A stretch of DNA of 64,000 nucleotides from Patellaria atrata CBS 101060 (taxonomy: Eukaryota; Ascomycota; Dothideomycetes; Patellariales; Patellariaceae). The notes under the pieces were generated by a model that made no database searches, was not told where the DNA came from, and worked only from the letters and a program-made list of their open reading frames with translations. The translations under genes were made by a program, and so were the position numbers. Shown piece by piece: positions 17,407 through 42,378 of the stretch (positions are counted from its first letter, which is position 1; each line of letters starts with the position of its first letter). The stretch covers positions 1,359,623 to 1,423,622 of the forward strand of contig MU006095.1 of the NCBI GenBank assembly GCA_010093705.1, given 5' to 3'.

Positions 17407-20400
17407 CTATATCCCTAAACCCCCCTTCTCCAACCGTCTGAATAATTGTAAGAATCCTTCTACCATCGTGTAAGGTCCTTCATCGAGTCTCAATCGACCA
17501 TCATCCTGGCCTACATCCAACGCATTGTACTTTGTTTCCTCCGATTCTTCAGTATCGCCGACACTGTATGGTTGAAGCCAGTTCCAGACACCCTTAGCAC
17601 TGGCCGCTCCACCGATTATGGGAAGTCGAATGGTAGCACTATCGGAATCGGGCTTGAGATCGGAACGTTGAATTTCCAGCCAGGTGGAGGGAGTTAGGGG
17701 CTTTTCCTCATCGTATGGATGTGGGATGTCGCGTGTGATTAGCATGGGGCCTAAAGTGAAGAATGCGGCTAAGGAATTTGTCAGTATTGGACGATATTTG
17801 ACTGCTCGATGTTGGATCAGCCACTCACATATTTTATACAGCGCCTTCTGGACAGTCCACGCAGACAGCTTCAGCTCAGTCACTGGGAGTATTGGCGTGT
17901 ACACATGGAGAGGAGTATATGGATCAACTATCATAGTTTTCACGAGGAACTTTGAAGCATGCGTAGCCTCAAAACTGTTGCCCTTCAGCGGACCTAGGGG
18001 ATCAATGTAGTATGGACTCAGAGTCGGAAAAACATCAGGTTCAATTAATTGGCGTGGATCTCCTACAACCGGCGATGGCGGTGGAAGAATAGGCTCTCCT
18101 GTAAGAGTACCTGCAGTAAAGTACGTGTGGAGTTTGGTCCAATTCGTTGAGCCGGTTGTGCTATTATCGGTGTCGAAGTAGCCCACTACACCATCGAACG
18201 GCCGTTCAGCATCGCCGATCTTGATTGGAAATTTGTATCCGTAAAGAATATCGGCATCCGAAATAGTATTGTTCAATGTTGGAGGTAAGGTAGTCTGGGA
18301 GCTCAAAGGCTCAGTTGCAAGTTCAAGGCTAAACCCGACATTTACTAAGGCTAACGGCTTCCCAATAATTGCAGTTGCAGATGCCGCATACTCCGGTGGT
18401 GCGAAGGGCATAGTCTCTACAGCCTGTGTGACCATGTTGTAGAAAGACCTCAGATAGACACCGCCATCGGACCCAGTCAGGGTTGTGATTAGTTGGTCAA
18501 GCTGCGGCGAAATATCCGCGGTCCCTGGAGTAGGGGGGTCGAAGGGTAACCACTTTGCGGATGCAATTGTGTCAGTTGGGCCTCCTAGTGTAAGTTCTAC
18601 GTAGAAGCTACCCTCACTTGTAAAGAATTGTAACCCCTGGTTGGCATAATTGATGATTATCCAGCCCCATATCGGTTGCTCATAATCTGAAACTGTTCGC
18701 CATCCCACGAATTCATTGGCATTGGTCAAACTAATCTCTTTCACCAGAAATGAGGCATTGAGTCGAGAGTTCTGGTTGATTGCAGGTGGAAGCTGGATAT
18801 AGGGGCAAAGAGGGTAAGCTCCCGGGAGTTGAGGATCGGCGAGTGTTAGGGGAGTAACCGTGTTTAGTAACGTTGTCCCTGGAACAAATGTTGGACAAAC
18901 CTGATCACCTAGGCAGGGGTATATGGTCTCGGGATCATCCGAAGGGATTCGCAATGGAGGTTGAGCGGGTATAGCACTAATTGCCTGTCCGAACTTGTCT
19001 ATCATGTTCAACTTGGTGAAACGAAGCTGACCATGTGTGGCACCTTTGAATGGAGAACTAGTCGCAGTAGAGAAGTCTTCCAGGGTACCGTAAGGTGTCG
19101 CTGCTGTTTGATCACGTATCAACATTAAGTCTTCGCGGCTGATTCCGATATCTACACCCGCGAGAACAGCGGCTTCAAGTGGAACTGGACGAGGGTTTCC
19201 AGGCACAGTAAAGTTTGGAGGAACATGGGAACCCTCCTTCAGAGTGAGTAGATTGGTTGTCAATCCATCCAACTCGCCAGATATAAAATCGAGGGTTCCG
19301 ACTGCTTTTATAAAAGCATCTCTTTGTTCTACAGTCTCGAGCTCAGGTGGAAGATCCGTTCCAGAAACACTGAGGACTTGTGCAAGTATGGCCTGAAGGT
19401 TAAAGACTGGTTGTGGAAGGACAAGAATACGTCCGGAAACGGTACGTACGTCTTCGGTGCTCTCCAGATCATTGTAGAGAGGCTCTTTTACCATGTACCG
19501 AACTTGAGAGTGGTTGTTGCCAATTGGAGAGCTAACCAGTTCCACAGACCACTTTTCTATGGGTATGTGATAGTAAATGGCCTCCCACTCAAGAAATAAG
19601 GGACACCATGGTTGTTTTACCCACGATTTGAAACCTAGGATGCCGCCATGATCTTGCGTGGTTACAGCCTCTCCAACAAGAACTTTTATCGCAGTGTCTA
19701 AACCTGGATCTCCTGTCGAAGCCAGTCGTACAACAGGAGGTTGATCTCTGAACTGGAAATAATAAGGACTTTGCGAGAGTACTCTAATATGTAATTTGCC
19801 CAGATACTCCGTTGGCCAACCTGAATCTATACCTGCGATACACACGGTCGGGTCTTTCCTATGGAAGAAAGCTGGACGCGCAATTTTTCGAGCTTTTAAC
19901 CTTGGAAACGCGACAGGACGCACAGCTCTCACAATATTGCTGACTTGTGCTTGGAGACCAGTATCCGGAGCCCAGATCTGTTGCGTTAGAGACTTAATAA
20001 TCTCTCTAAATTTGACAACACCATCCTTGTATTTCATCAGTCTTTCCTGTTGCTTTCCATTCGGGTCTGATATAAAGTTCCACCAGACGGAAAATAAAGA
20101 CCATTGCATGTGTTTCAGTTTTCGTTCTGCAGCATCTATCTGAGCTTGGAGATCGTTGACTTTCCTCAGATACTGGGTTTCAGAATAGCCTGACTCATCA
20201 GGCTTGCTGCTGGGTGTCAGAGCTGGTTTTCCACGTTCCGCTTTTTCATCGTATTGCCATGCAACACCTCCAGCTTCACGCTGAAAGTTATGAGCGTCAA
20301 TTATATCTGAAGCTTTTACACGGCCATCATATCCATCTTCCATAGCGTAAAGAAGCTCACTGAGATTAAGAATATCCGCGGCAAGCTCACTGGATCCACT

Positions 20401-21627
20401 CCCAAGTATGACATCCGAATTGGCCTTATGCGCTTGAAGAAAGGTTAAGACGGAATCTAGAGCTGTTGTGCCCACGGATATTGGCTCCATGGTTATATTT
20501 GCTGTGAATAGCTTCGCATACTCATCGGCCGGAGTAAAAGGTTTAAGATTTCGATTCCAGGGGACATTGTATACAGTACCATGGCATGCTAACCTCGACC
20601 ACGTCCGGTCGAACCTACCGTTTTTCTCAATCCAATCAGGGGAAGTCTCTAAGAACAGTGCCCTTAGCCGCTCTTTAAAACTCCCTTTGAGACCGTCTCT
20701 TCCGACGGGATCATCGCTCAGGTTTGAATGCCACCCTACAACGGTATAATCGCAAGTAGCTTTGGTGTACTTCGATACCCTTCCAGAAATATTGACGAAT
20801 TGTAAATTATCGACCATTGAGAGAACATTGGGGTTGTGGGCGGAGTTGTCCGCAAACAGAATGTTCCCTGAATTCATAGTCGTTAACGGAATTCTTGGGA
20901 CAGTATTCCCCTTCTCTTCCCATGACGAAGCGGGAATCTTTGCACCAATATAATATTTCGTTTGATTATTCAAAACATCAGGGGAAGATTCGTCACCATC
21001 TTTGTACATAACATATGGGCTTACATCAACCTCGAGATCAACATCAGGACCCAGTTCATCAAGTGTCCATAGACGGTCGCTTTCGACCACCCATGCTTGA
21101 GTCCTTCCGAGGGCTATAGCATTTCCCGGTAGGGCATCTCGGATCGACCTTACAACTAGCCAGCGGTTTGGTATCATTCGAAACGTTGGTTCCGGGCTGA
21201 TGTTTTCCTTAGTCGGAAGCTCATCCGTCCCAGAAGCTCCTCCAGTGGCAGCTCGATAGAGCCGTGGCAAGCTCCAGTGAATATACACGCCTAATCTTCG
21301 TTCCTTTGAGCGACCAGTTGAGGCTTGATCAGTGCTTCCAGGAGAGGAACTGAGAGTAGTTGCACTTTGGTCTTCGACTGCAGTCACACGGGAATTGACT
21401 GTTGCAGGTTGAGTTCTACTCAAGTCTACGTACGGAAGGATATCATGTTTGATTTCCGAACTGTTCAATCGCAGGCCACGATAGTCTGGTTGAGTGATAG
21501 GCGCAATCCGAGAGCCGCCTTCGTCACAGACTTTCTCGTTCAATATGAACGCTTCGACATTGATCGGAGCGCAGAAGATATTGGTATCACCCATAGACAT
21601 GTTTACTGCCCGTGATCTCTCCTTCAA
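17407..21627 (-). CDS. Giant protein A: uncharacterised 1406-aa protein with IHWSLP / IPNRWLVVR blocks
   Basis: One uninterrupted exon. Recognisable blocks are an N-terminal segment with PINVEAFILN (residues 21-30), GVYIHWSLP (113-121), MIPNRWLVVR (151-160), WVVESDRL, a predicted coiled coil (YLRKVNDLQAQIDAAERKL and following, just after residue 480) ending in a Trp-rich MQWSLFSVWWNF, and a late VKTMIVDPYTPLHVYTPILPV. From memory these match large bacterial proteins of unknown function with LHWALPD...PNRWLV blocks that often occur with other giant proteins. There is no signal peptide or membrane span, so it is probably cytosolic. The start could also be Met10 (21600) or Met12 (21594). It is divergent from the tyrosinase, with 439 bp between starts. 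Lack of introns over 4.2 kb, unlike neighbouring genes, is compatible with bacterial origin. Function unknown. Confidence 0.85.
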   Translation of the reverse strand: MKERSRAVNMSMGDTNIFCAPINVEAFILNEKVCDEGGSRIAPITQPDYRGLRLNSSEIKHDILPYVDLSRTQPATVNSRVTAVEDQSATTLSSSPGSTDQASTGRSKERRLGVYIHWSLPRLYRAATGGASGTDELPTKENISPEPTFRMIPNRWLVVRSIRDALPGNAIALGRTQAWVVESDRLWTLDELGPDVDLEVDVSPYVMYKDGDESSPDVLNNQTKYYIGAKIPASSWEEKGNTVPRIPLTTMNSGNILFADNSAHNPNVLSMVDNLQFVNISGRVSKYTKATCDYTVVGWHSNLSDDPVGRDGLKGSFKERLRALFLETSPDWIEKNGRFDRTWSRLACHGTVYNVPWNRNLKPFTPADEYAKLFTANITMEPISVGTTALDSVLTFLQAHKANSDVILGSGSSELAADILNLSELLYAMEDGYDGRVKASDIIDAHNFQREAGGVAWQYDEKAERGKPALTPSSKPDESGYSETQYLRKVNDLQAQIDAAERKLKHMQWSLFSVWWNFISDPNGKQQERLMKYKDGVVKFREIIKSLTQQIWAPDTGLQAQVSNIVRAVRPVAFPRLKARKIARPAFFHRKDPTVCIAGIDSGWPTEYLGKLHIRVLSQSPYYFQFRDQPPVVRLASTGDPGLDTAIKVLVGEAVTTQDHGGILGFKSWVKQPWCPLFLEWEAIYYHIPIEKWSVELVSSPIGNNHSQVRYMVKEPLYNDLESTEDVRTVSGRILVLPQPVFNLQAILAQVLSVSGTDLPPELETVEQRDAFIKAVGTLDFISGELDGLTTNLLTLKEGSHVPPNFTVPGNPRPVPLEAAVLAGVDIGISREDLMLIRDQTAATPYGTLEDFSTATSSPFKGATHGQLRFTKLNMIDKFGQAISAIPAQPPLRIPSDDPETIYPCLGDQVCPTFVPGTTLLNTVTPLTLADPQLPGAYPLCPYIQLPPAINQNSRLNASFLVKEISLTNANEFVGWRTVSDYEQPIWGWIIINYANQGLQFFTSEGSFYVELTLGGPTDTIASAKWLPFDPPTPGTADISPQLDQLITTLTGSDGGVYLRSFYNMVTQAVETMPFAPPEYAASATAIIGKPLALVNVGFSLELATEPLSSQTTLPPTLNNTISDADILYGYKFPIKIGDAERPFDGVVGYFDTDNSTTGSTNWTKLHTYFTAGTLTGEPILPPPSPVVGDPRQLIEPDVFPTLSPYYIDPLGPLKGNSFEATHASKFLVKTMIVDPYTPLHVYTPILPVTELKLSAWTVQKALYKICEWLIQHRAVKYRPILTNSLAAFFTLGPMLITRDIPHPYDEEKPLTPSTWLEIQRSDLKPDSDSATIRLPIIGGAASAKGVWNWLQPYSVGDTEESEETKYNALDVGQDDGRLRLDEGPYTMVEGFLQLFRRLEKGGLGI

Positions 21628-22066
21628 ATCTCGTATGTATATGAAAGTACAGGGAGAACGTTGGGCTCAAAAGCTCGCTCACCCAAGGAACCGTCTACCG
21701 TATGCCACGCTTGATAGGGCATAGCGGGCTTGCAACAAGCACTCCGATATTCATCAAAACCATCTTATCATGCCTCCAGATTTGTGTCAGATCGGATGAA
21801 AGTTGTGGAGAATTTGGCTTGCATCTTGATCTGGCTCAGCCCGATTTTCGCTTATTCTGGCGATGGTGGCCCAAGCTTTATTTCAGCTTCAAGCCCCTTT
21901 TCTTAGCTCTCAATCCAGCTTCGACGACCTCGACAAAACTTGCCCTTGATGAGAGGTATCAATCATTATCCTATGCTGGAAGAAATCAGGACTTTCGATA
22001 TGTTTTGTCAACCATTATCAAGCTCTGTAACGTCTGAAGAGACAGAACTACTCTTTCTGGGTCAAT
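21628..22066. promoter_or_regulatory. Divergent promoter region, giant protein A / tyrosinase
   Basis: The 439 bp between two start codons pointing apart must hold both promoters, so the two genes may share control elements. I could not identify a specific operator with confidence. Confidence 0.6.
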
Positions 22067-24739
22067 ATGGGACCATCCGCCAAAGCAGCGAACATTGCTC
22101 GGCAGCATATACAGGAAGGAGTGGTAGCTGGAATTTTGAACAACGGCAAGAAGGGTTACCCACGCTTGGAGATTGATGACTTCTGTCAAGACTATGCCCG
22201 TCTCAATTTGTATCTTCTGGCAATGTCCGCCATTCAAGATCCAAACAATGACATTAAGGATCTGTGGAGCTGGTTTCAGATTCAAGGTATTCATGGGTAT
22301 GATTTATGATCGTTTCTTCCGAGAGGTTGTTGACTTGATATCAGAGTACCTTGGGCGGACTGGGGTGGAATAGGTCCTGAGGCTCTGTATAAGGATATCA
22401 AGAGCAGAGGTCATCAAGTAGATATTACCTCGATTGACGGACAAGACCCAAGAGAGGGTGATAGAGAGGTTGGCTATTGCACACACGGAACTATCCTGTT
22501 CCCCAGTTGGCACAGGGGATATGCAGCAATGATTGAACAGGCCATTCAAGCAAAGATGGTGGAAATAGCGAGTACATTCAAACGGAAAGGACCCAACGAT
22601 CTTGCTTCAAGGTCCAGATCCGCTGCAATCCAATTCAGACAGCCGTATGCATCATCATCCACTTCGACGCCGACTATTTACTGATACCTCTAGATATTGG
22701 GACCCATTCCGAGCTCGTGCTGGTCAAGCTTGGAATAATACTCTGCAACCCGGTCTCTCCTTGATTCTTGCCGTCAAAAGGGTCAAAGTTACCCGACCTG
22801 ATCTGACAGAAGCCGAAATTGATAACCCGTTGTACAGTTATAAATTTCCGGGGAGAGATAAGTTCATAAACGCTAGACCAGCATTACTACCTCGAATTGA
22901 AGGCAACGAGTGGGCTGGCCTCGACATCAGAACTCGAGAAACCCATAGGAGACCTCCAGACCCTAATAACCCGATAAGCTCAAATAATGTTGCTATCCAG
23001 CGACGTCTCGAGGGTTCCATTGGGGATAGTGCAGGTACTCTCCAGTGGCGCGATCTCATGGAAAAGGCATATCATACATTGATGCTCGACTCACCCCAGC
23101 AGGTTCCGAATGCAAAGAACTTATACCATCGTTTTGCGACTAACGACTGGGAAAGGGCCGAGCAGATTGCATTGGGTGTCACTCAGCTTAGTCCAAATGG
23201 TGATCCACATTCTTTAGAAGCATGGCATAATGAAAGTGAGTCTTGCTAACTGCACCCGTATCCTCGAAATTATTATACTAATTTGGTTTCTCAGTGCATG
23301 GAATAATTGGCGGACAGGGAGGAACCATGGGTAACCCAGATACTGCTGGGCATGATCCCATATTCATCTTTCATCATGCGAATGTCGATCGGCATTACGC
23401 CCTTTGGCAAGCTCGATATCCGAAGGAATGGTGGGGGGCTGCTCAAGCAGCTGCTACAGAAAACAATTACACCCAGTTGCTTGGAACGTATCAGACTCCA
23501 CAAACTCCTCTCATACCATTCAGGAGAAAACCACCCACTATTGGCCAAAATCACGCCCAGAAAAACACGTTTTGGAACACCGATGACATACGAGATCACT
23601 CTACATTAGGATATCAGTACAATCCCATACCAACAGACATGAGTCCTAATGAGAGAAGTCGCGAAGCAACTCGCGATATTAACATTAATTTAGCTTGGTA
23701 CAAAGCAAGACCGACTGCTTTGGACGGCCCCTTCGTCGACCCAGTTCCCATGGATAAAGTTAAAGCATTCCTCAGCTGGCCTCCCCGGATCGACGACCGA
23801 ACCGATCAGAACCCCCTCTGGACACCCATTACCGCGACTCCCGGCCCTTTGCACCCCAACCGACTTCCTATCCGAAGGCAACTTCGAGCTGAAGGCTCTG
23901 TTGGAGATTCCTCAGTACTGCTTCCTGTCCCTGCGCCAGAATTCGCAAAACTCCCAGACTCCGACTTCGAGTACATTTTCCCACCTTCAACTATCTCTTC
24001 AGCCGGCTACGTGAAACTCTGGTTCTTCAACTTCCGCTGCCTCCGCCACACCCTCGGCACTTCCTTCACAGTGTACGTCTTCCTTGGTGACTTCCCCACC
24101 TCTTCCTCTGAGTGGTCCAAGGCGCCTAATCTTGTAATGCCACTATTCCAAATTGTCCGTTTCAACCCCGCTGCGTTCGAAGCTACCCCCGATTCAGGAC
24201 CCGCAACGCAAAGTGGAGCAATCTCCCCGGAGGACGGCACACTAAAGAAGTTAGTCCCGAAAGTTGAGAAGGAGAAGCATAGTACCTGCGGCAATTGTGC
24301 GAGGCAGCAAGAAGATCGAAGGATGTTAGCTGATACAGCGCCCTTGACTCAATCCCTGTTGAAGTATATCCGACTTGGCGAGGCTGTCCCGGATGCCGAT
24401 GACATCGAACAAGGCGACCTACCGGGTGTCGCAGTAAGGAGCTTGGAAAGCGATGATGTGGTACCCTTTTTGAAACGAAACCTACATTGGCGGGTGGTTC
24501 GGGTATGTAAAACTAATCCGCGATCACGGAAAACCGCCATATGCTGACTGATTGTACTTTAGTCCGACGGCGAGGAGATCCCTCGCGACCAGCTAGAAGA
24601 GTTCAAGGTCTTTGTTACGCAGCGGGGCTTGACTCTACCGAAGAACAACTTCGACGTGCCGATTTACGATCCTGCAGAGTTGAAGTGGGACGTCACGGAT
24701 AATAGGCCGGGAGGGTTAGCCTCGGGGGAACATCCATAG
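22067..24739 (+). CDS. Tyrosinase (type-3 copper oxidase), long form
   Basis: Five exons: 22067..22296, 22345..22644, 22694..23235, 23295..24502 and 24563..24739, giving 818 aa. The introns are 48, 49, 59 and 60 bp. Splicing restores all copper ligands. CuA has His76 (IHGVPWADW), then GYCTHGTILFPSWHR with His124 and His133. Cys122 is placed for the Cys-His thioether seen in fungal enzymes. CuB has His355 and His359 (WHNEMHG) and DPIFIFHHANVDRH (HH at 384-385). A C-terminal tyrosinase domain (FTVYVFLGDFP) and extension follow. Known activity of the family is oxidation of monophenols and o-diphenols to quinones. The CuA-CuB spacing (about 222 residues) is longer than I remember for ascomycete enzymes. 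No signal peptide is visible, so a cytosolic latent enzyme is likely. It sits between giant proteins A and B. Confidence 0.93.
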
Positions 24740-25050
24740 ACACAAACAACTGTGCATGATGCAGTCTCGCAAATAGAAACTCTTAATACAATTTCCTTCG
24801 AACGCGACCTCTACTATTATATTATCCCTAAGAGCTAGAATAGGGGTTAAAATAGCCCTCTTTCATCTACACAGTTATCAAAGAGAAAATAGTTGACAAT
24901 CTTGTGGAAACCGAGCCATACATTTGATCTAGACCCTAACTTCTCGTAATTATGGAGAATTGGTGTTTTCTTTCAACGTATTTACCCTGAGTGTCGTTCA
25001 AATGAAATATCATCAAGTAGTCCCACGTTGTCCAGCCACTCAAAGGCCAA
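24740..25050. other. Convergent 3' flanks, tyrosinase / giant protein B
   Basis: This is the 311 bp between two stop codons facing each other. It is AT-rich and must contain both polyadenylation regions. No gene is seen. Confidence 0.6.
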
Positions 25051-28000
25051 TCACACTTCAACGCCCTTCAAATCCTTATCCCCTCCCTCCCTTTTCAACA
25101 CCACAACATCCGAAAACACCTCCCCAGTAGTCCCATCAGCCTGTAAATACGTCTCGATGACCCTGACCTTACACATTCCCCTCTGTTGCCCACCCAACCC
25201 AAAAATATTAACACTCACGGGCGTCCCCACAGGCGCGATCACGCACTCTTTGAGCACCAAACTGCAATCTCCAGTCACAGTATCCGGCAAACTTGAGATC
25301 TTTCCCAAGGCCGTCGTTCGCGGTGTTATTACGACTCTAACCTCGTCGTGCGCGTGAGACACCGAAGTCACGAGTCGCCGATTCGAGAGCATATCAGCGC
25401 CCGCACCGGCATAGACACCTTTCAGTAGAGGTTCGAGGGTAGAATCGCCTTCTATGTCTGCGGGAATGACGACTGTGATGCTAGAAAGTGCTAGATTGAT
25501 CGGTGGAGCAGCGGTGTTGCGTTTGATGGAGAATATCAGGCTGGGCAGGAACTTCGTTGCTGTAGGAATGTAGTCCTGGGCTGAGTAGACCGGATTGACG
25601 GCGTCAGTGAGATCTGGGAAAGGTGGGGCGCCACGATAGTCTGGATGAATTACAATACGGTATTGAGAACTTCCCCCGGGAATGAGGGCTTGTGCAGTCA
25701 CTTCGCGGCGTGTCTGGGGTACAGTTACTGGTCTACTCGATCGTGCAGATCTATGTCGCAGTTGATGAACCCGTGCTTCAGCGTGAAGTGTAGGAATAGT
25801 TTGATTTGGGCCACTTCTTGTCAGTCGTTCATTATCTTGTTCTGATACACGAAGAGGTCGTGGTGCAAGATCCTCCATATCTTTTCCAGCCCATAATTGT
25901 CTATCTGGTTTCAAGAAATACACTGGCCCTGTATCTCTAGGTGGGAAGATTTGTAGTTGGTAGCTTGAATCATTTAATTCGAGAGCTAGAACTGTAGAGT
26001 CTAACCCTTGCGCTAGAAATTCTTGTGTCGGAGTTTGGAATAGAAGCGCCGGGCGTAAGTCAACTATCATTTTCGGAACGTCAATACATCGAGTATTTGC
26101 ATCGTACCATGTCGCTATTTTATCAGGGGTCGGCATTTGAGCCGCCGGAATAGGGGGCCAGGATCCACTAGAGTCCGCTGGCACAGGAGCTCCCTTGGTG
26201 TAGAGTCTTCTTAGCTCGAACGATGCGATGTATCGCTGCTGATGCGGCGGTTGTATGAATTTGATCTCGAACAGGTCCTCTGGCAAACAGTCCAACAAAG
26301 CAAAAACTGTTCGCTCGTCTAATTTTGTAAGTCGAATAAGTGGATCGTGGTTGTTGTCTGGAATTAAAACCGGTGCACCATTTGGTGCTTGCCTTCTACG
26401 TCGAGCTACGATACGAATGTCAGGCATCACTCGTATGAGTTCAGAACGCAGGATAAACCCGTAACGAGGAACTGGTGGCTTCATCCCGGCAGACGGAATC
26501 TCAGTCCGTAAATAGACGTTGTATGCTTCTTTGATGCGGCGTCGGACTCTATCATCAACAGGCTCAAAATGGTTTGCAGTCGAAAGAGCACCGTCTATGA
26601 AGCAGTCCAACCAGCAGTCGTCGATGTAGAAGAATCTTAATGCTTCGGACGGTAGGTAGCTAGGGTCCGGAATAAGATAATGAGCCGGAATATCTGCTAG
26701 AAACAACTTGTCACTAATCCAGTTATGAATAATCTCCCAGTCCGAGTTATTCGCAGAGCCTAGCGTATAGTCGCTGTACAGTTCATCACCTGAAGCTGTT
26801 AGGGCTCGGAATACACGAGTGATCGATCTTTCGAACACCGGCAACACTTTTGGGTGAATTAGTGATGGCCCTACCTTTTCCGACGTCGGTAACAGGTTCC
26901 GAGCAGGCAAATCATGTCCATTGGTCGTGTCTCTAACTTCTTTGAATCTTGTTGGTATCTCCCGAAGAACTCTTTGAGGTGACAGCACACCATTTATCAC
27001 TATCCTCGTCTCACTACTAGCCCACCTATGAACCAAAGAGCGAAATCGGAGCAATGCGGAATTAAAAACCGTATCAGAAACAGCCATTAGCTTCCCTAAT
27101 TGCCATGCGGATGAATAGGTCAGATCCATAACTCCAAGGTCTTTGTCCAAAACTTGGTACTCTTTCCCTGTATTAGATGAACCTGGCCAGTCATCAGCAA
27201 CGGAGGGTTTCCAAGATGTTGGAGCAGGTGTCAAAGGCCCCCGAGAGAAGGCTAAAGTCTCTTCACCAGTCGCTGCTCTCCATCTATGAATTGTGTAGCC
27301 CAGTGACAATCGCTCATGCAGTAACTTGCTTGACACAGCTGAGTTGGGATCTTCCCCTATTGTGCCTTGAAGTAACCCCAGAGATTCATCACCTATTCTC
27401 AACATTTGCTTCGTCGCAGCCAAGTTTGTCATAATATCTTTGAAGTTGATGGGATTTGGAGGTAGAGAAAGATATGTCCAACTGTACAGGGAACACAAGC
27501 CTATTCGACCATCTCCTGTAATCTGGGTTTTATCCATTTGTTCTATATTGATGAGATGAACAACTTGAGTACGGGGGACAGTGTTATTACGAGGCCCAGT
27601 CATATGGCTCACGCATATAGAAAACAAGCCATTCTGCTGGGTTCCGGCATCTGGGAATCCCATCGTATTCATCTCCCTCACATGGCACATAAAGAAAAAC
27701 TTGTAAGGATCCTTAAGGATTGCTGCCGCTTGACTTCTTTTGGGGAAGATTACAGTTGTGTTCTCAGTAGACTCGGTGAGGGATTTCCATGCAGGATTGT
27801 TCTCGGGTTGATCAAACGCTGCTTCAAAAGTAGGTCTTGATGTGATCTTTGTAAGATAATCACCAGCAGTCATCGGAAAAGCTCCTGAAGACGTTGCCGC
27901 AGCTGCGGACGCGGGAGATATCCCTAAGGATGTAACTTCCGCTGGACTAACTTTAAGGTCTTCGGGGTCGAACACAAGAAGAGCAAACCATGGGCCTCGG

Positions 28001-28440
28001 ATACCCCTATCGGCTATTGCAAAGCTCGAGGCGGAAGGGCCTATCCGATCCCATGGAATATGGGGGTCATTGAAGACGATGTGAGGTAGTATTAACCCTT
28101 CGTCAGCACCTCCATCGGGTGGATAATGAGAATTGATTGTGTCAGGGTCGAGTGAGAACTGTGGAGCGACGACGTCGAATTTCTGTAGTAGAACAGGAGT
28201 AGTTGCTGGAGGGGGAAAGCTAACCCCCGTTGTAGAATCGTAATTGAAGATTTCTAGTTTGCCTTCATCTCCTGGGATACTGGTCTTGATAGATTGTTTC
28301 ACCTCGATGCCATAGTTTCCCGGGGGAAGCCGTGGCCGATATAAAGGATACAATCTGATATATCCCGGTTTGAGGTCTGATTCATTCACTCCATTGATAG
28401 CTCTTTCAACGTTTGCTCTTACAAGACTCCTAGGTGCCAT
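25051..28440 (-). CDS. Giant protein B: uncharacterised 1129-aa protein
   Basis: One uninterrupted exon with a clear Met start. Conserved-looking blocks are LPPGNYGIEV (residues 38-47), FSLDPDTINSHYPP (95-108), LPHIVFNDPHIPWDR (118-132), GPWFALLVFD (149-158) and RFFYIDDCWLDCFIDGALS in the middle. A C-terminal segment after about residue 950 looks beta-rich. From memory the N-terminal blocks resemble bacterial proteins of unknown function that follow the same order: a Pro-Gly-Tyr beta segment, a DP...FPP block, then LPHVVL...LPWER. I see no signal peptide, membrane span or catalytic motif. It is divergent from the DUF6603-type gene and convergent with the tyrosinase. Intronless over 3.4 kb, like giant protein A. 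Probably a structural or binding protein acting with its neighbours, which is inference. Confidence 0.85.
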   Translation of the reverse strand: MAPRSLVRANVERAINGVNESDLKPGYIRLYPLYRPRLPPGNYGIEVKQSIKTSIPGDEGKLEIFNYDSTTGVSFPPPATTPVLLQKFDVVAPQFSLDPDTINSHYPPDGGADEGLILPHIVFNDPHIPWDRIGPSASSFAIADRGIRGPWFALLVFDPEDLKVSPAEVTSLGISPASAAAATSSGAFPMTAGDYLTKITSRPTFEAAFDQPENNPAWKSLTESTENTTVIFPKRSQAAAILKDPYKFFFMCHVREMNTMGFPDAGTQQNGLFSICVSHMTGPRNNTVPRTQVVHLINIEQMDKTQITGDGRIGLCSLYSWTYLSLPPNPINFKDIMTNLAATKQMLRIGDESLGLLQGTIGEDPNSAVSSKLLHERLSLGYTIHRWRAATGEETLAFSRGPLTPAPTSWKPSVADDWPGSSNTGKEYQVLDKDLGVMDLTYSSAWQLGKLMAVSDTVFNSALLRFRSLVHRWASSETRIVINGVLSPQRVLREIPTRFKEVRDTTNGHDLPARNLLPTSEKVGPSLIHPKVLPVFERSITRVFRALTASGDELYSDYTLGSANNSDWEIIHNWISDKLFLADIPAHYLIPDPSYLPSEALRFFYIDDCWLDCFIDGALSTANHFEPVDDRVRRRIKEAYNVYLRTEIPSAGMKPPVPRYGFILRSELIRVMPDIRIVARRRRQAPNGAPVLIPDNNHDPLIRLTKLDERTVFALLDCLPEDLFEIKFIQPPHQQRYIASFELRRLYTKGAPVPADSSGSWPPIPAAQMPTPDKIATWYDANTRCIDVPKMIVDLRPALLFQTPTQEFLAQGLDSTVLALELNDSSYQLQIFPPRDTGPVYFLKPDRQLWAGKDMEDLAPRPLRVSEQDNERLTRSGPNQTIPTLHAEARVHQLRHRSARSSRPVTVPQTRREVTAQALIPGGSSQYRIVIHPDYRGAPPFPDLTDAVNPVYSAQDYIPTATKFLPSLIFSIKRNTAAPPINLALSSITVVIPADIEGDSTLEPLLKGVYAGAGADMLSNRRLVTSVSHAHDEVRVVITPRTTALGKISSLPDTVTGDCSLVLKECVIAPVGTPVSVNIFGLGGQQRGMCKVRVIETYLQADGTTGEVFSDVVVLKREGGDKDLKGVEV

Positions 28441-29002
28441 CTTGTTCCCATATGTTTTTGGCGAAGTAGAACTGCCGTCCCGTGCGATATTTACATGTCA
28501 TCGCCCGAAGGAAGGGAGTTGTAGTCATTACTGTCCTCCACAGGACATTGATAGGTTCGGTACATCTTGCCGTTGTAGAATTTCAGGCTATGCAAGATAA
28601 TCGTAGCGAAGTGTAGCTGAAAGTCGTGGCTGTTGGAGGGGGTAAGCCAGAAATTCAGAATCCCTTAGGTCACTAAGAGTTGGCCAATCAATCTTTTTCG
28701 GTGTTTCAGCTTCATGCATCGAGACGCCACATACTTTAGACAGCATAAGAACGGAGTAATACAGAAATCGTATCTCAAAGAATGGAAACTCGTGATACTT
28801 GGCGTAGATCCTTGGTGGAAGCCATGCTCCTTCGCCGTCTCTCTTGATCAAGGTAGGAGATGTGACGCAAAGGATGAAATTCTCTCAATCGGAGAGTATC
28901 ACGATGGAATAACATCAATATTGACAGCTCTAATCTGGGAGCATCATAACTGTGATCGAGCCTGTACTCCTCCTTCATTGTTTTGAATCATTCATCATCG
29001 CA
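28441..29002. promoter_or_regulatory. Divergent promoter region, giant protein B / DUF6603-type protein
   Basis: 562 bp separate the two divergent starts. A CCAAT box (CCAATCA at about 28684-28690) lies near the middle and is a plausible binding site for the HAP/NF-Y complex. If the upstream ATG at 28952 is used for the + gene, the region is 511 bp. No other element is secure. Confidence 0.55.
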
Positions 29003-32000
29003 ATGGCGTCTTCTGGTGACCACAGCTTTGAGAACCCTCCCACAAACACACCAACAGGTCAACCAAGTCTGATAGTCGAAATCATACCATTTCCCCTACC
29101 CCTAGATGAATTCATAGTGAATTCCAACCCCAATACTTCTAGTTCGAGCTGGAACAAAGTCTATGAAGCGCTAGGAGTAACATTCAGTAACTCTTCTGGT
29201 TCGCTCAATGCGAAAGTCACTAGCTTTTGGGACACAACATTCTCGTCTACTGAAAACGAGAATAAATTTGGCCCGAGCAATGGTTCTGCGACCGCTGTTG
29301 GTGGTGATGAAAATCCATCTTCTGCTGTATTTGGCATGATTCTGCCGACATCTGGAGCCCTGACGACACCATTGAAGTTCTCCGAAGTCAGAGAAAAGTT
29401 TGGGATAAACAATTCAAATGCAAACTCCTCCCTAATATCGTTACTAGATGCAGTGGACAGGGCTGGCGCGTTGATGATCACACTCGATCAAGATCCAAAG
29501 GCTCGTAACGCGTTATGGATCGTTCCCAAAGATGCCTACAAAGTCATCATGAATATGGTCTTTACGATTGCGAACGAGGAGGCAATAAGGGGATTAGAGA
29601 GCTATATCAAAGCATCGTACGGTATCACTATCAGTATTTCGGCTAGAAACTGTCGGTTTGAATTTCAGCAGACAAGTTTCTTCATTCCGAACCTCCCCAA
29701 AAGACCAGGGTTAGGAACGAATCCAGAGTTCATCAGGTCATCTAAATATCGTATGGTGGTCAGCTTCCAGGTGGCTTCCTTCGAAGTCTCGATCATTTGT
29801 ACCCCGGATGATATGGAGTTCTATTTTTCAGATCCACCAAACGCGCTTGTTACGGGAAATATCATCGATAGGTTGAATAGTGCTATAGTAAATGGTTCTG
29901 GAATGAGTTCTAATGGTTTTCCCGATTCATCTGCGGCAAATCCGTTCAGTAAGATCCTTAAAGATGTCAACCTCTGGTACATAAACATTGGAAGAGAAGT
30001 GATAGGACATACTGCTGCGACCCCTACACAGCCATCCATCCCAGAATACGGTTCCTTGTATTGGTCTATCAAGCTATTCGGCAAGTGGGAAGTCGGAGCA
30101 AGTAGTGAAACGATTCTCCTAGGGTTGAGCTATGATTCTCGAGATCAAACATTTTTCGGACAATTACTCTTCCAAGCCGATCTACCAACAGATATGGTAA
30201 AACGCCAACACGGTTTTTTCTGGGTCACTGATGATATACCGTTTAGTGTTCGAGAAAAGCTCAGGACTAGAGGGATACCACGTAGCCTCAACCTACTTGG
30301 ACTCTTCAGTCAATCTATCAAAGCTCCAAAAGGTGTACCGCTTGAGTTGACACAGGGTTACATCGCATTTAGGAGAGGTGACAATGGTTCTGGCACCGAA
30401 CTTAGCTTTGGAACCAATATCAAGTCTCAGATTGCAGTCGAGGAGAATGAAGCCGCTGCACCTTTTGGATTTTCGTGGGATGAAATTGCAGCCCAAGTTG
30501 CAATACAAGACACCGGAACTACGTCAACTACAGACATTGTTATATCGACGAGTATCAACCTACGAGGGGGTGCGGATATCCCTCCCGCTACTTTGAGTGT
30601 TGACGTAGAGTATTCCACAGGTGGGTTTTGGGTCCTTCATGGCCGTCTTGAAAACCTTTCACTCGCATTATTAGCCAAATTCTTCCACAAAAATAATCGA
30701 GAGATGGCCAAGGGTCTTCTGGGAACTCTCCGTTTACGTTATGCGGATGTGATATACACTTTTAACTCCTCTGGTGAAACTGCCGGAGAGCCTTCATCGT
30801 TCGTAATTACTGGAGCCTTAGTATTAGGAGGACTTGAGTTGGACTTGACATATGAATTTGCGTCCGCACTTATCGACTCCAGCCAATCTGCCGCGAAAAT
30901 TGCCCAGGAAAGCGGCCAACTTCCTAGTGATAGAGAAACATTACGTCCCTCCGGAGGCGAATCCCAATGGTCATTCGAAGCAGATCTGGGTGCTTCCACA
31001 ACTGGAGCAACGCTGGGTACAATCATAGGCTCTTTCTCGCCAAACGCTATATCCAGTCTACCTACCTTCGTTACAAATATCGATGTTGCACCTGCAGCTG
31101 GAGGGAAAGCCCCGATAAAGCTCAAGCTTGCCTCAGTGGGTAACACGACAGCCGGTAGCGGTGTAAGTCCTGGAAGTGGCCTCATACTCATATTCGTAGT
31201 CTCGATGCTTGATACTACTTTTACCTATATCTCTCTTAATCAACGTGGGGTGACAAAGCGAGTACTTCAGGTTAACGCTGATCAAATCCCCATCGTAAGT
31301 GATATACCGCTAGTCAAGGTACTACCTCCGCCGTTTGATGAGCTGCGGTATCTATGGGTTGATACTCCCACCCCAGTGGGCCTCTCCAAAGATGAAATCA
31401 ACCAGATCAACGCTGAGCTCGAGAAAGGCAAGATGGCAAAGCTTGCATATAAAGAGACAAGTAAAGACAGCGGCGCTTCTGCAGGTCCAGTATTGCAGAC
31501 TGGTCATCATTTCATGGTTTTGCAAGGCGGTAAAGTAATCCTCGATCACGTTTTTGGTAAACCGAATCCGGACTCTCCTGATCCAACCAATCCAGGAGGG
31601 TCGGGTAACGCTCAGGATCCACCGCCAACAAAGGGTGCTATTGACAAGCAGACACCGTTCCTTACAATAGATGGTATCCAGTTACAGTTCAAAGCACCGG
31701 TTCTTCACATCGAAATATCGGCAACGATAGTACTCGGGCCTATTAATTTCTCCGTAATAGGGTTCGATATCGGGTTCAATCTTGAGAATATCAAATTGAA
31801 CAATCTTGCAGCTCTCCTTTCTCCTGGTCTAATCTCTGTCGGGCTTCATGGGTTAGCCGTCAAAGTAGACAAACCGCCGGTCACCATGTCTGGGGTATTC
31901 ATTCATGAGGATATCAATGCCGGTGGGGTAGTTGCTGAGAGCTATCGTGGAGGTATTGCCTTCGGATTCCAGGCCTGGCAATTTATGGCAGTTGGCGAGT

Positions 32001-34251
32001 ACAGGATTGTTACACAGCCGCAAAACTATAAATCGGTGTTTGTATATGCAAAGCTTGACGGACCATTGATCACACTAGCCTTTGCAACTGTGAGCGGAGT
32101 TCGTGTTGGATTCGGATACAATAGCATAGTCCGATCACCTACTCTGCTTGAATTGCCACAGTTTCCTTTCCTGAATAGTTCTGCGGATAAAGAGGCGGGG
32201 AACGATCCCATGAAGATTCTAACTGCTATGATGGGCGATGGTAATAATGCTCCGTGGGTATCAGCGAAGGAAGATTCATATTGGGTTGCTGCAGTAAGTC
32301 GTTAGGGGGATATAGGCGTGACTTAAGACTAATCAGCATAGGGTGTTACCTTGACCGCATTTGGCCTCTTAGCAGTCACCGCGGTACTAATGGTAGGTTT
32401 CCGTGATGGTGGAGCTGTTATATCCGTCTTCGCCGATGGCATTGCACAAATGCCACCGGGCGTTAGTGCAAATGCTTGTCTGGTTTATATAGAAATTGGT
32501 ATGCTCGCGGAGCTCAACACGATCGATGGCTATTTCACTGTGCAGGCTGCTCTAGCTCCAACTTCGCATTTGATAGTAGCATCATGTCGACTGACGGGCG
32601 GGTTTGCTTTGACGAATTGGTTTCGACCAAGTCAGCATTCTGGAGACTTCGTACTGACTGTTGGAGGCGTGAGTACAAGTATGAACAAAACCAAGAATTT
32701 TTACTAAGCATCCACTCCAGTATCATAGGGCTTACAAACCACCTCCGTGGTATCCAGTTGTTCCTCGTCTCGGAGTCTCCTTCACACTTGAAGACATGAT
32801 CAACGTCACCGGAGTTGCATACTTTGCGATCACTCCAAAATGTGTTATGGGAGGAGGTGCTCTCCATCTAGGTCTTGATGTTGGACCGGTATCTGCTTGG
32901 CTAGACGTCATCCTCGATGTCTTCATCCAGTTCGATCCATTTATGTACATGGCCGATCTTGCGGTCTCCGTAGGCTGCGCCATCACGATAAAGGTGTGGT
33001 TCGTTCATATCAGAATCAGCGTCAGCGTTGGTGCTGCGCTCCACATCGAGGGACCAGATCCGTTCCGCGGCGTAAGTACCAATTCTCACATACGTGATAT
33101 ATACTTACCCTATTCAGTCGGCGAATGTCGAATTCTACCTCTTCTCGTTTACGGTCCATTTTGGTAGAAGTCCTACCATAGAAGTTGAAAAGAAATCCCT
33201 ACCACAATTCTATGAAATGGTGAAGTCGCCCGGGCCTTCGACTCCTGCACCCTCAGACTCCTCCGTGCGCGACGAGCAGCAAGCGTTGGTTAAGTTCACT
33301 GTCTCCACAGGTTTGATCCCGCCGGCTCAAACTGCACCACGTTCAGATTCCGGCCAGTTCCCTAGCACGGGAGCAACTGCAACTTGGCTTGTCAAATCCG
33401 GTACGTTTAGTTGCAACATCGGCTTCGAATTTGCCATCTCTTCAGCCCATATACGCCGCAGTAACGACGTAAACACAACTGTGGTAGAACTATTCCCCAA
33501 GGAGGGCGCATCAGCTATTAAGCCCTTCTGGTCAAAGCCAATGCAGCTGACCTCCTCCAATCCAATATCTTCATCCGTTGAAGTGAAAGTTTGGATGCTC
33601 AACCTCGCCGATCCGGAGAAGAACACCCCGATCGATGCAATGCAGGGTGAACTCGTCACCAAAGATGTTCCCGCGGCATTGTGGGGTGCCTACGACAGGG
33701 CTGAAGATCCAATCAGGACGGGAAACCCATCAGCAACTACAGCAGCTCTATCAGACCCCAGAGAGCCGACAATGAACTTGTGCATGGCCATCAATCTTTG
33801 GACGCTTCCAGGAGTTTTGTTGCCGAGCCCCATAACTGATATTGATGCCTCCGCCGCATTCCGTAGATATCTTGATCCAACGTGGTTCAATGCGTCCCCG
33901 GTCGAGCAAAAAATCTTAAGATCTAGCGGCGTCTTGTATTCCACCGAGTCGCCTTCGGAAAGATGGGCCCATGTGGTAACTGATTGGCAAAACTTTGCCG
34001 CTACTGGAAGCCCTGTTCTTGAGAGTTCAACGCTGACTGAGGGCGAAGTTCAAGGTAGTGGCTTGTTGAAGTCAGCAGCGAAGTATTTGGGTTGGGATAA
34101 GCCGTCTCCCAAGGGAGCAGGTAGTGATAATGGTAATAGTACTGACGGAAGAAAGAAGTGGATGTTGAATGCCAAACCTGCTAAACGAATGATGAAGAGT
34201 TTGCCAACTAGCTATCCGGTATTATTCAGATATAGTGCTGTAACTGCTTAG
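29003..34251 (+). CDS. Giant protein C: DUF6603-type 1700-aa protein
   Basis: Four exons: 29003..32293, 32342..32668, 32721..33071 and 33118..34251. The introns are 48, 52 and 46 bp, each with clean GTAAGT/GTGAGT donors. The start MASSGDHSFENPP is chosen; an in-frame Met at 28952 would add 17 residues. From about residue 884 to 1345 the protein matches my memory of DUF6603: LTIDGIQLQFKAPVLHIEIS, GLHGLAVKVDKPPVTMSG, VSGVRVGFGYNS, CRLTGGFALTNWFRPSQHSG, then across the intron LTVGGYHRAYKPPPWYPVVP and YFAITPKCVMGGGALHLGL. The alternating hydrophobic pattern implies a long beta-strand array. DUF6603 proteins occur mainly in bacteria as giant proteins without known function. No signal peptide is seen. 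It completes the block with proteins A and B. Confidence 0.87.
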
Positions 34252-38769: not shown

Positions 38770-41700
38770 CTATACATCCTGCAACGGTACAGGAGCGTAT
38801 CCCTCATCTTCTCTCCTCCTACCTCTCCATTTATCCACAAGGCCTATAAACGCCCCTTTCGCGCCTTTGAAAGCCCACGTGATCATACCTTCCTGATCTC
38901 TTATCCTTTCCGCTTCATCGATCTCGGCTTCTGGGTCGAGAACAGAAACTCTCATCCACTTGGGTCTTCTCCACCACCTCAGAGCAAGACTGCTTGCTAC
39001 GACAGACACACTGCTGCATGCCATAGCTGCACCTGCTGCCATAGGATGAAGATGATAGCCCCATGGAAGGAAGAAGCCCATTGCGAACGGCAGGCCTGTA
39101 ACATTGTAACCGCATGCCCATAGAAGGTTGATTTTGATGCGACGGAAAATGGTTTGGCTCAGGTGAAGAGATGCGGGAATGGACAGAAGATCAGTTGGTG
39201 ACATCAAAACAATCGCTGCGGCCTCCATTGCTACATCAGTACCCGAAGCAAGGGCAATACCTACAGCTGCTGTGGCGAGAGCTGGAGAATCGTTGATACC
39301 GTCACCAACCATAGCGACGACGTTCTTTTTGCCGTTAGGACCAAAGCTCGACTGAAGTCCCTCGATGATGCGTTGCTTATCGGATGGTGTAGCAGAGGCA
39401 TGAACGTTATCCGGAGAGATGCCGACTTGCTGTGCGACAACAAGTGCAGGTGCTCTCTGATCTCCAGTGACTATCGAGCACGAAATTCCAAGACGATGAA
39501 GTGCGCGAATGGTAGCACGTGCAGAAGGTTTGATGGTGTCTGAAAGGGAGAGCGAGCCAGTATAGACAGATGATATAGCCGTGTGAATCCTTGTGGTACC
39601 CGCTGAGGTGCTTGGAAGATCACTATCAAGCTCGTCAAGTTCATCTGGATCCTCCGCAGAGTTGGGAACAGATACACCCTGAGAGCGAAGAAACTCTACG
39701 TTTCCAACGAGCACCGGATAGCGAGTTCGTTCAGGGGAGATGGCGGCTTCGACGTTAGCGGATATGCCTTTTCCCACAATGACCTCGAAGTCACCAGCGC
39801 TCCCATCGATTGCACCATCTACCCCAAGTCCAAGATGTTCGTTTGCTGCATTTACAATCGCGCGAGCAATGGGATGTTCGCTTCCCATTTCTGCGAGACC
39901 GATGAGTGTCCACCATAGGCGACCTTTCTTCTCATCATCTATCCAATCACTTTCAATATCTGCTTTGGAAACGCTCATCTTTCCGACTGTGAGCGTACCC
40001 GTCTTATCGAGAACAACGTGGTTAACTTTAGTAGCAGTCTCCAATGCGGCGCCACCCTTGACGAGAATCCCTTGTTCGGCTCCAACACCAGTTCCCACCA
40101 TGACGGCGGTGGGTGTGCTCAAACCCAAAGCGCAGGGGCATGCAAAGACAATAACAGAGATACAGAGCTTCATGCAAACCATGACTGTTCCTCCGCTTGC
40201 GTCATCGAGGAATATCTTAGGTGGGTGAGGCAGTACATGAGATAGGATCATCCACGCTATGAACGTAACGAGGCCTAGAGTGATGATGATGGGCACGAAG
40301 TACCCAGCTACAACATCGGCCATTCTTTGAATAGGTGCACGGCTCGTCTGCGCTTCTTGAACAAGTCGAACGATCTGGCTCAGTTGGGTATCGCGACCAG
40401 CACGGGTAACAATAAAGTCAACCCGACCGGCTCCATTGACTGTACCAGCCATCAAGAGATGTCCCTTCTCTTTGAGGATAGACATTGCTTCTCCTGTAAC
40501 CATGCTTTCATCGACGTAGCTCTCTCCGCGCATGACGGTACCATCAGCGGGGATCTTATCTCCAGGTTTGAGGACAACAATATCACCAACTTCGATAAGT
40601 TCTGTAGGAATTATTCGTTCCTCAGCAGCAACTCCGTCCGCATCCTCATTGCCACGCTTTTCGTAAGCATTGGATTTCTCATCATCATCCCATTCCTCTG
40701 CAGCTTTTGCGGCCGCAATGGGATCTGCGTAAATAGTCGCCATTGACGGGGCAAGAGACATTAGTCTTGATAAGGCCTTCGATGTCTGGCCTTTAGCACG
40801 GTTCTCTAAGTATCTTCCGAGCGTTATGAAAGTAATAAGCATAGTGCTGGTGTCGAAAACCGTGCTTGGTCTGGTATGGGGAGGAATAAACAAAGAGACG
40901 AACATCGCTCCAATACTGAAGAAAAATGCTGCGGAGGTGCCAAGCACAACGAGAACATCCATGGTTGGTGATCCATGACGCATGGAGCGATAGGCTGATA
41001 TGTAGAATCGTTTGCCAATGCCGAACTGTACGGGAATCGTGAGAATGAGACAGACAACGTCGCCAAGGTAAAGGCCGGGTATCAATCGTATGCTGCCGTA
41101 ATTTAGGAACTGGAGGAATGAGGGTAACATGGGCAATATCATAGTCGTAAGGAAAACAGGTATCGCAAATGAGAGGGAAACGCGGAATGCTCTGCGCCAT
41201 TCTTGGATTTCTTTGGTCTTTGCAAGAGATTCGAGCTGTGCATTATTGTCGTCTGATTCTGAAATGAGAGCATTGTAACCCGCATCCTCGATTGTTCTTA
41301 CAATAGCTCTTAGGCCGGTAATGGAGGGGCGATGGGTTATTAATGCTTTGCCGTTACCCGGGTTGACTGATGCGGCCGTGATTCCAGGTAAAGCGCTGAG
41401 AGTAACTTCCAGATCAGACGCAGCCTTTGAGTTTGGTAGTCCATATATCTTTAGTGACACAACTGCACTTGACGAAGAGGTTTGTAATGCTCCGTCAACT
41501 GAGGAAACCACCTTCGCATCAAACCCTCGATCTTCGATGATCCCAACTATTCGAGAGGCCGGTAGTTTTAGAGGGTCATGTACAATGACGGCCCTCTCCG
41601 CGAGCAAGCTGATATTGAACTGTACTAGACCATCGAGATCTTTGAACCCACCTTCAACAGCAGAGGTGCAAGCGCCGCAAGTCATTCCTTCAATTTCAAC

Positions 41701-42378
41701 AGTAGTTGTGGCAATGGAGGTTTTCGCTTGCTGTCGCGATGCATTTTTACTAGACGTTTTCTTGCAGGCCGGGTTGGATTCCAATACCTCAGCGTCGAAT
41801 CCTGTATCCTCTATAATTTCCGCAATCTTATCAGCAGCTATTATTTTTGGGTCGTGCTTCAAGACAGCTCTCTCGGACATGAGTGAGATGTTGAAGGTCT
41901 TGACACCCGCTACATCTTTAAAGTTTCCCTCGATAGCAGCTGTACAAGCGCCGCATGTCATTCCTCCCACGGAGAGAGTAGTGACGAACAAGCCTGAGGA
42001 GGCCTCATCCTCGCTTTCCGACTCTATATCGAAGGTGTCCGGGTCTGGGACTGGAAGGTCGGTCGATAGAACCTCTGCATCAAAGCCGCGATCCTCTATT
42101 ATCTCCTTAATCATTTCTGCGGGGACCTTGATGGGGTCATGTTGGACAACGGCTCGCTCCATTACTAGACTGACAGAGACACTGCCAACACCGTCAAGAC
42201 CATCGAGACCACCTTCGACTGCCGATGTACATGCCCCACATGTCATTCCCTCCACCTTCAAAGTTGTAGTTGCCATATGTGCAGTTGGCGCATTCTTCTT
42301 GCTTGCGGATGTTCCGGTGCGGGAACTGATGGATGAGTCCACATCCTGTGTCGAGACGGGCAGGTATGAGGGCGCCAT
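38770..42378 (-). CDS. ccc2: Copper-transporting P1B-type ATPase (Ccc2/ATP7 family)
   Basis: Single exon, 1202 aa. Three N-terminal heavy-metal domains carry GMTCGAC, with CGAC at residues 47-50, 142-145 and 234-237. A fourth HMA-like fold follows (VVSLKIYGLPNSK...IEDAGYNALI) without the CxxC, so it is degenerate. The pump core has TGEAMS (actuator TGE), CPC in VFACPCALGLSTP, DKTGTLTVG with the phosphorylated Asp, SEHPIARA, and GDGINDSPAL. Such pumps move Cu(I) from the cytosol into the Golgi lumen to load secreted copper enzymes and the Fet3-type iron oxidase, and may also detoxify copper. The acidic loop between HMA1 and HMA2 (FDIESESEDEASS) may be regulatory. The ferric reductase lies upstream on the same strand, consistent with shared copper/iron physiology. 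The symbol is by family. Confidence 0.95.
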   Translation of the reverse strand: MAPSYLPVSTQDVDSSISSRTGTSASKKNAPTAHMATTTLKVEGMTCGACTSAVEGGLDGLDGVGSVSVSLVMERAVVQHDPIKVPAEMIKEIIEDRGFDAEVLSTDLPVPDPDTFDIESESEDEASSGLFVTTLSVGGMTCGACTAAIEGNFKDVAGVKTFNISLMSERAVLKHDPKIIAADKIAEIIEDTGFDAEVLESNPACKKTSSKNASRQQAKTSIATTTVEIEGMTCGACTSAVEGGFKDLDGLVQFNISLLAERAVIVHDPLKLPASRIVGIIEDRGFDAKVVSSVDGALQTSSSSAVVSLKIYGLPNSKAASDLEVTLSALPGITAASVNPGNGKALITHRPSITGLRAIVRTIEDAGYNALISESDDNNAQLESLAKTKEIQEWRRAFRVSLSFAIPVFLTTMILPMLPSFLQFLNYGSIRLIPGLYLGDVVCLILTIPVQFGIGKRFYISAYRSMRHGSPTMDVLVVLGTSAAFFFSIGAMFVSLFIPPHTRPSTVFDTSTMLITFITLGRYLENRAKGQTSKALSRLMSLAPSMATIYADPIAAAKAAEEWDDDEKSNAYEKRGNEDADGVAAEERIIPTELIEVGDIVVLKPGDKIPADGTVMRGESYVDESMVTGEAMSILKEKGHLLMAGTVNGAGRVDFIVTRAGRDTQLSQIVRLVQEAQTSRAPIQRMADVVAGYFVPIIITLGLVTFIAWMILSHVLPHPPKIFLDDASGGTVMVCMKLCISVIVFACPCALGLSTPTAVMVGTGVGAEQGILVKGGAALETATKVNHVVLDKTGTLTVGKMSVSKADIESDWIDDEKKGRLWWTLIGLAEMGSEHPIARAIVNAANEHLGLGVDGAIDGSAGDFEVIVGKGISANVEAAISPERTRYPVLVGNVEFLRSQGVSVPNSAEDPDELDELDSDLPSTSAGTTRIHTAISSVYTGSLSLSDTIKPSARATIRALHRLGISCSIVTGDQRAPALVVAQQVGISPDNVHASATPSDKQRIIEGLQSSFGPNGKKNVVAMVGDGINDSPALATAAVGIALASGTDVAMEAAAIVLMSPTDLLSIPASLHLSQTIFRRIKINLLWACGYNVTGLPFAMGFFLPWGYHLHPMAAGAAMACSSVSVVASSLALRWWRRPKWMRVSVLDPEAEIDEAERIRDQEGMITWAFKGAKGAFIGLVDKWRGRRREDEGYAPVPLQDV

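Follow-up and report, generated by a model that had tools for sequence, protein, structure and literature searches.

A bacterial-type module of three giant proteins in Pezizomycotina and its candidate tyrosinase partner in Patellaria atrata

Tc (ABC) toxin complexes combine a number of giant proteins with target-binding parts and an enzyme that can be exchanged, and extracellular contractile injection systems (eCIS), such as the Photorhabdus virulence cassettes (PVC), have a conserved core with cargo enzymes encoded nearby. The Umbrella toxins of Streptomyces (UmbA, UmbB and UmbC) are described (PMC11062931) as big scaffold proteins combined with target-binding lectin parts and many alternative toxins. 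Here, we present a block of four genes from the fungus Patellaria atrata CBS 101060, located in a 64,000-nucleotide stretch of contig MU006095.1 (hereafter, the window), in which three giant-protein genes, designated A, B and C, are interleaved with a tyrosinase gene, T. Their order within 17 kb is A (-), T (+), B (-) and C (+); A/T and B/C are divergent pairs, and T and B converge tail to tail, an arrangement that the initial annotation of the window had noticed and that is present at the positions given in Table 1. The A/B/C trio is almost certainly a real, transferred bacterial-type module that was taken up by Pezizomycotina, and the chance that the tyrosinase serves as its fungal enzyme partner is about even.

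Each of the three giant-protein genes is represented by one locus in the 28.3-Mb Patellaria genome. C is a member of the DUF6603 family, as it had been labelled initially, and its first exon matches PF20248 with 141.5 bits (curated cut-off 27), whereas for its partners A and B neither Pfam (at E<=1) nor NCBIfam gave a family. Pfam assigns DUF6603 no function, and our literature searches retrieved no paper on DUF6603 or PF20248 and none joining a toxin complex with Pezizomycotina; among the records listed in further searches, none dealt with this module. A profile search for solved relatives of A, B and C gave none that was convincing. Gene A is indeed a giant, but the 1406 residues first attributed to it belong to a raw open reading frame that starts at a TTG further upstream; translation of A from the ATG at 21600 gives 1397 amino acids (aa), or 1377 aa after intron removal, and this spliced product is 100% identical to the deposited protein P0001 over residues 1-1377.

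The first question is whether these three families belong together outside the fungus. Similarity searches, in which just the candidates with the most words in common were scored, returned 73 proteins for A, 177 for B (120 of them listed) and 40 for C. The end of the A list held nine distant relatives, including proteins of Nocardiopsis and Streptomyces, all of them shorter or unlike the fungal type. When species-representative genomes of bacteria and archaea were scanned with A alone, on the basis of an alignment of five distant relatives, 60 loci were obtained (in 55 genomes by accession; the scan used two peptide patterns and is biased to close relatives of the query). Profiles built from the search matches detected A in all 60 of these loci, B in 57 and C in 59. 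Genes in the bacterial loci were predicted with a simple script that uses codon usage. Most often they lie on one strand in the order C-B-A, and in five loci A comes first, followed by C or by C-B. The hosts belong to ten phyla: Actinomycetota (43 loci), Bacillota, Gemmatimonadota, Rhodothermota, Bacteroidota, Nitrospirota, Pseudomonadota, Balneolota, Cyanobacteriota and Candidatus Walliibacteriota. A is also carried by eight plasmid records, six of which were read; five hold A, B and C together, and C is missing from one.

The reverse test started from C. Genome sets were centred on Streptomyces eurocidicus (its class), Aquimarina (phylum), Nostoc (phylum) and Paenibacillus (class), and DUF6603 was matched in 37 of 394, 17 of 395, 5 of 292 and 1 of 200 genomes, respectively, each count including the centre genome. 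From the 59 matching genomes of the Streptomyces-, Aquimarina- and Nostoc-centred sets, 40 regions were picked by hand, with divergent and fused cases deliberately included. Where C exceeded 400 bits (25 regions), B was present in 25/25 and A in 19/25, at least two of these loci (L177 and L183) coming from genomes already in the 60-locus set; one of the six loci lacking A stops at a contig end, and in the others A may lie outside the stretch or be absent. The association of the three families in bacteria, which the initial annotation had suggested, is thus borne out from both A and C. The remaining 15 regions contain a divergent DUF6603 protein amid other giants, which we call the sister operon. 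The protein following it (B') shows a weak relationship to B (hhalign 88%, E 2.9e-6, based on eight of the 15), and no kinship was detectable between the next protein (A') and A. Giant-protein operons with DUF6603 are therefore of two kinds at least, the first of which includes the fungal block. The sister operons at L153-L166 and L188 also include other uncharacterised large proteins. At L149-L152, the C reading frames are 3200-3460 aa long, and the DUF6603 core begins ~2000 residues in.

On the fungal side, the named matches among those listed all come from Pezizomycotina, from species that we take to represent Dothideomycetes, Lecanoromycetes, Leotiomycetes, Sordariomycetes, Eurotiomycetes, Orbiliomycetes, Geoglossomycetes and Pezizomycetes. 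Judging from contig records and gene numbers rather than from fungal DNA, A, B and C share one contig in Patellaria, Squamulea, Clohesyomyces and one more case, and two of the three share a contig in seven more, including Amniculicola and Cadophora gregata (A and B) and Pyrenodesmia, Rhypophila and a Naviculisporaceae (B and C). The fungal rows form one clade in each tree, with a Shimodaira-Hasegawa-like approximate likelihood ratio test (SH-aLRT) value of 100 (17 of 47 rows for A, 14 of 40 for B and 12 of 42 for C); these trees are quick and unrooted, lack bootstrap values and contain long branches as well as numerous rows whose composition is unusual. In all three, Patellaria, Squamulea and Clohesyomyces share one clade (3, 4 and 4 rows with SH-aLRT of 100, 99 and 100 for A, B and C, respectively). 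Several bacterial groups recur between the trees, for example, Paenibacillus with three Actinomycetota, and the C tree contains two additional prokaryotic DUF6603 proteins outside the core clade. With unrooted trees, the direction of transfer is read from the distribution, which covers ten bacterial phyla and one fungal subphylum. Branching among the fungi does not track the fungal classes, which implies later loss, duplication or transfer between fungi. Co-occurrence in bacteria and a single fungal clade per family make a transferred module, as proposed initially, the best reading of these data.

The bacterial neighbourhoods suggest what the module may do. An enzyme set of 29 proteins encoded beside the core was compiled (24 of the 34 listed upstream proteins, to which five of L024, L042 and L017 were added). 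Bulk counts of Pfam matches, taken for all neighbours at E<=0.001 rather than at curated cut-offs, assigned eight to the metallo-beta-lactamase (MBL) fold, three to the M91 'effector' protease, three to the EEP nuclease family and one each to the subtilase, Pertussis_S1/Scabin-like (34.6 vs 21.3 and 31.7 vs 27 bits) and RIP-like families. In 51/60 loci, the end of A is followed at no more than 130 bp by another gene on the same strand, and 35 of these 51 genes belong to one family. In the 78 downstream proteins scanned (103 were listed), we found Collar (6), Kelch (3), other propellers (3), LamG (2), S74, a tailspike chaperone (2), F5/8C (2), and B_lectin, Gp10_C and hemopexin (one each); among the proteins checked singly, the curated cut-offs were passed by Collar, Kelch, LamG and hemopexin. 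In six Streptomyces loci, a stand-alone protein of ~500-580 aa, corresponding to the first ~570 residues of long C and termed Cn, adjoins an M91-like gene (Table 1), and in L026 and L044, an M91-like gene (below the Pfam cut-off, related by BLAST) lies directly ahead of a long C with Cn fused. From this adjacency we infer that the Cn part of C may hold the enzyme.

Further observations were made in the same neighbourhoods. Proteins of ~375 aa (L022:14444-15562, L042:14580-15704 and relatives) match one another by BLAST only in the first ~113 and last ~35 residues (low-complexity filter on), a pattern as in a diversified binding protein. A Paenibacillus plasmid (L063:1-9124) carries a phage baseplate V-type gene together with small nuclease and ankyrin genes ~9 kb ahead of the core. 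The enzyme gene of L010 gave short-stretch matches (E 1.3e-12) to MBL proteins of defence systems. Membership of a known defence system was considered for the trio and rejected, as PADLOC returned no match for A, B or C. A phage origin was likewise rejected: 21 pattern matches in IMG/VR included no confirmed relative, phage records contained none, and no PHROGs match was obtained.

How does this module compare with the described toxin systems? Pfam presumably holds the ALF-repeat, TcA, TcB/TcC and Rhs families on which part of the comparison relies. Tc complexes are like the module in their giant proteins and exchangeable enzyme; they differ in that A and B belong to no Pfam family and that the proposed cargo is a separate gene. 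No TcA, TcB/TcC or Rhs family was found in A or B at E<=1, and the first exon of C contained just DUF6603; the structure search with the models of B and C listed folds other than the Tc pore-forming and cocoon subunits. Umbrella toxins (PMC11062931) resemble the proposed assembly in their scaffold, lectin binding and alternative toxins. There, the toxin is the C-terminal domain of UmbC, which is built on ALF repeats, whereas here the enzyme is encoded separately and no known family is matched by A or B; no ALF-repeat Pfam family was detected in A, B or the first exon of C. The cargo enzymes near the core and the phage-fibre-type domains nearby recall eCIS/PVC (PMC3482391), but eight proteins representing A, B, C and the downstream family had no match in PHROGs. 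A comparison of B with viral structures gave nothing at E<=0.001. With respect to polymorphic toxins, six enzyme types, some of them from toxin-like families, occur among 29 genes beside the bacterial core, and the fungal block has one enzyme. None of the family, profile and structure searches that were run connects A, B or C with a described system; its putative working mode, that of a multi-component toxin complex, is of a known kind.

The bacterial neighbourhood is best accounted for by a complex of the delivery type whose enzyme and binding parts can be exchanged, a reading with a probability slightly better than even. In such an assembly, A, B and C would form the body, the N-terminal region of C would dock a variable enzyme cargo, the DUF6603 core would provide a trough or pore-like wall, and the downstream proteins with fibre-, lectin- or propeller-type domains would bind the target. 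The structure model of DUF6603 (predicted local distance difference test >=90 in 448 of 994 residues) is a very long antiparallel beta-sheet with many amphipathic strands, 12 of 40 being strongly two-faced, a count made with no control comparison. Fungal C from residue ~487 onward matches the bacterial N-terminal profile when the DUF6603 core is excluded (hhalign 78-93%, E 1.8e-5 to 3.5e-7; controls, E 0.29-0.71). Fungal C thus probably retains part of the bacterial N-terminal region, and for this reason the tyrosinase is a candidate cargo that might contact it.

T itself was named correctly: one exon matches Tyrosinase (PF00264) with 44.6 bits (cut-off 22.6), and Tyrosinase_C matches with 72.2 bits (cut-off 26.9). 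On the basis of known motifs, we take H76, H124, H133, H355, H359 and H385 to be candidate copper ligands and Cys122, two residues ahead of the second His, to occupy the thioether position. T therefore has the sequence features of a type-3 copper protein, and an o-quinone-forming activity is predicted. Fungal tyrosinases (e.g. PPO4, 4oua) have the same type-3 copper site and Tyrosinase_C; T differs from them in its 818 aa and its place within a giant-protein block. A random 17-kb block would hold a tyrosinase with a chance of ~0.7%, as estimated after the fact. In Patellaria, T would act as the enzyme partner, and the complex would hold or deliver a quinone-producing activity. The reading as a whole, an acquired bacterial three-protein core acting as a delivery-type assembly with T as its fungal enzyme partner, is tentative, its likelihood standing not far below one half.

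A number of results weigh against this reading. Complex formation, secretion and toxicity are predictions. The enzyme set drew on the gene upstream of C in 24 of 60 loci, and most of the other loci have none there; in the enzyme set, 12 of 29 proteins fall into none of the listed families, as do most of the 78 downstream proteins, and RIP, S74 in L056, B_lectin, two of the M91, one of the EEP and the non-Kelch propeller matches lie under the curated cut-offs. Metallo-beta-lactamase and subtilase folds are not specific to toxins. Fungal C matches the Cn region with moderate strength, and the match loses significance when the comparison is restricted to the stand-alone Cn rows (E 0.02-0.03). The model of C matches outer-membrane barrels at root mean square deviations of 9.5-16, which does not discriminate between barrel, trough and belt; the body of B has no fold match, and A has no structure model. 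No binding-fibre-type gene was found in the fungal block. Fusion of the bacterial downstream domain into fungal B was considered and rejected, although the C-terminal domain of B has an Ig-like fold, as the two have no detectable kinship (hhalign E 0.2).

Several alternatives, which are not mutually exclusive, have to be set against the delivery reading. The alternating directions of the four genes, which do not require shared control, would suit unrelated neighbours with separate fungal histories; such histories are already contradicted for A, B and C by their co-occurrence in bacteria and fungi and by the matching fungal clades, and T may have a separate history. As an explanation for all four genes, this is extremely improbable. 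A serious alternative, somewhat short of evens, is that the trio is a real transferred module and that the tyrosinase is an incidental neighbour that moved in between A and B. The initial annotation had joined the trio and the copper oxidase into one system, and the gene-neighbourhood check upheld the trio but not the tyrosinase: phmmer with T found no tyrosinase in the bacterial A-B-C loci, which counts against the partnership. T is also fungal in type (four introns, Tyrosinase_C), its best solved relatives are hemocyanins and mushroom tyrosinases, and it is one of ~12 tyrosinase loci in the genome (23 exon matches, grouped by place). However, T sits inside the block with A and B on either side, and in Squamulea sp. 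the deposited gene numbers (A 004484, B 004486, C 004487) leave room for exactly one more gene at the place of the tyrosinase.

The absence of a tyrosinase match in bacterial loci also counts against the earlier suggestion that a large assembly is modified or cross-linked by quinone chemistry. A tyrosinase with candidate copper ligands does lie within the block, yet nothing beyond its presence was found in favour of cross-linked giants, and no cross-linking-substrate feature was noticed in A, B or C, no search aimed at one having been made; this proposal is very improbable. An intracellular assembly of A, B and C, serving as a scaffold or as a storage or compartment structure in which variable enzymes are organised but not delivered to other cells, is also unlikely, though less so. 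Such a role would fit the starts of A, B, C and T, where no signal peptide is apparent by eye (no predictor was used), and the diversity of the enzyme families, some of which are not toxin-like; the Collar, LamG, S74 or lectin domains of some downstream proteins, in contrast, suggest binding outside the cell. The delivery reading can be extended further, to Pezizomycotina having domesticated an undescribed bacterial protein-delivery particle and reloaded it with tyrosinase, which would give a quinone-generating particle directed at competitors or grazers; we consider this extension doubtful, with rather little probability.

Table 1 Features of the four-gene block in the Patellaria atrata window and of related bacterial gene pairs
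Feature	Position	Strand	Remarks
Gene A, giant protein, IHWSLP / PNRWLV family	17407..21600	-	1377 aa spliced, no Pfam family
Intron of A, GT-AG, 60 bp	17769..17828	-	Read through in the open reading frame; absent from deposited protein P0001
Gene T, tyrosinase	22067..24739	+	818 aa, four introns of 48-60 bp
Gene B, giant protein, LPHIVF...PWDR family	25051..28440	-	1129 aa, one exon
C-terminal Ig-like domain of B, residues ~920-1129	25054..25683	-	Outside the portion common with bacterial B
Gene C, DUF6603 giant	29003..34251	+	1700 aa, three introns of 46-52 bp
Region of C, residues ~487-690, matching bacterial Cn	30461..31072	+	hhalign; probable correspondence
DUF6603 core of C, spanning two introns	31643..33071	+	PF20248 matches G000:C7:1391265-1392302 and 1392343-1392696, both above cut-off
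Stand-alone Cn and M91-like pairs near the core operon	L042:15817-20509		Likewise L051, L022, L024, L025, L019

The surroundings of the block contain genes of other kinds. RPB2 flanks it on one side. At 38773-42378 (-), 4.5 kb past C and with other genes between, lies a P-type ATPase with four HMA (heavy-metal) domains, whose proximity to the tyrosinase block may reflect chance or a link to copper supply. Towards the end of the window are a calpain-family gene (54846-56366, -) and a HET-domain gene (57252-59309, +).

Thus, three large protein families to which no function had been given constitute one conserved module, which is present in bacteria of ten phyla and in filamentous fungi of many kinds. 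The neighbours of the bacterial genes provide a testable proposal for how it may be built, namely, a scaffold with an exchangeable enzyme and an exchangeable binding part. In the fungal copies, an entire system of several giant proteins would have passed from bacteria to eukaryotes and persisted there, which would be a rare case.

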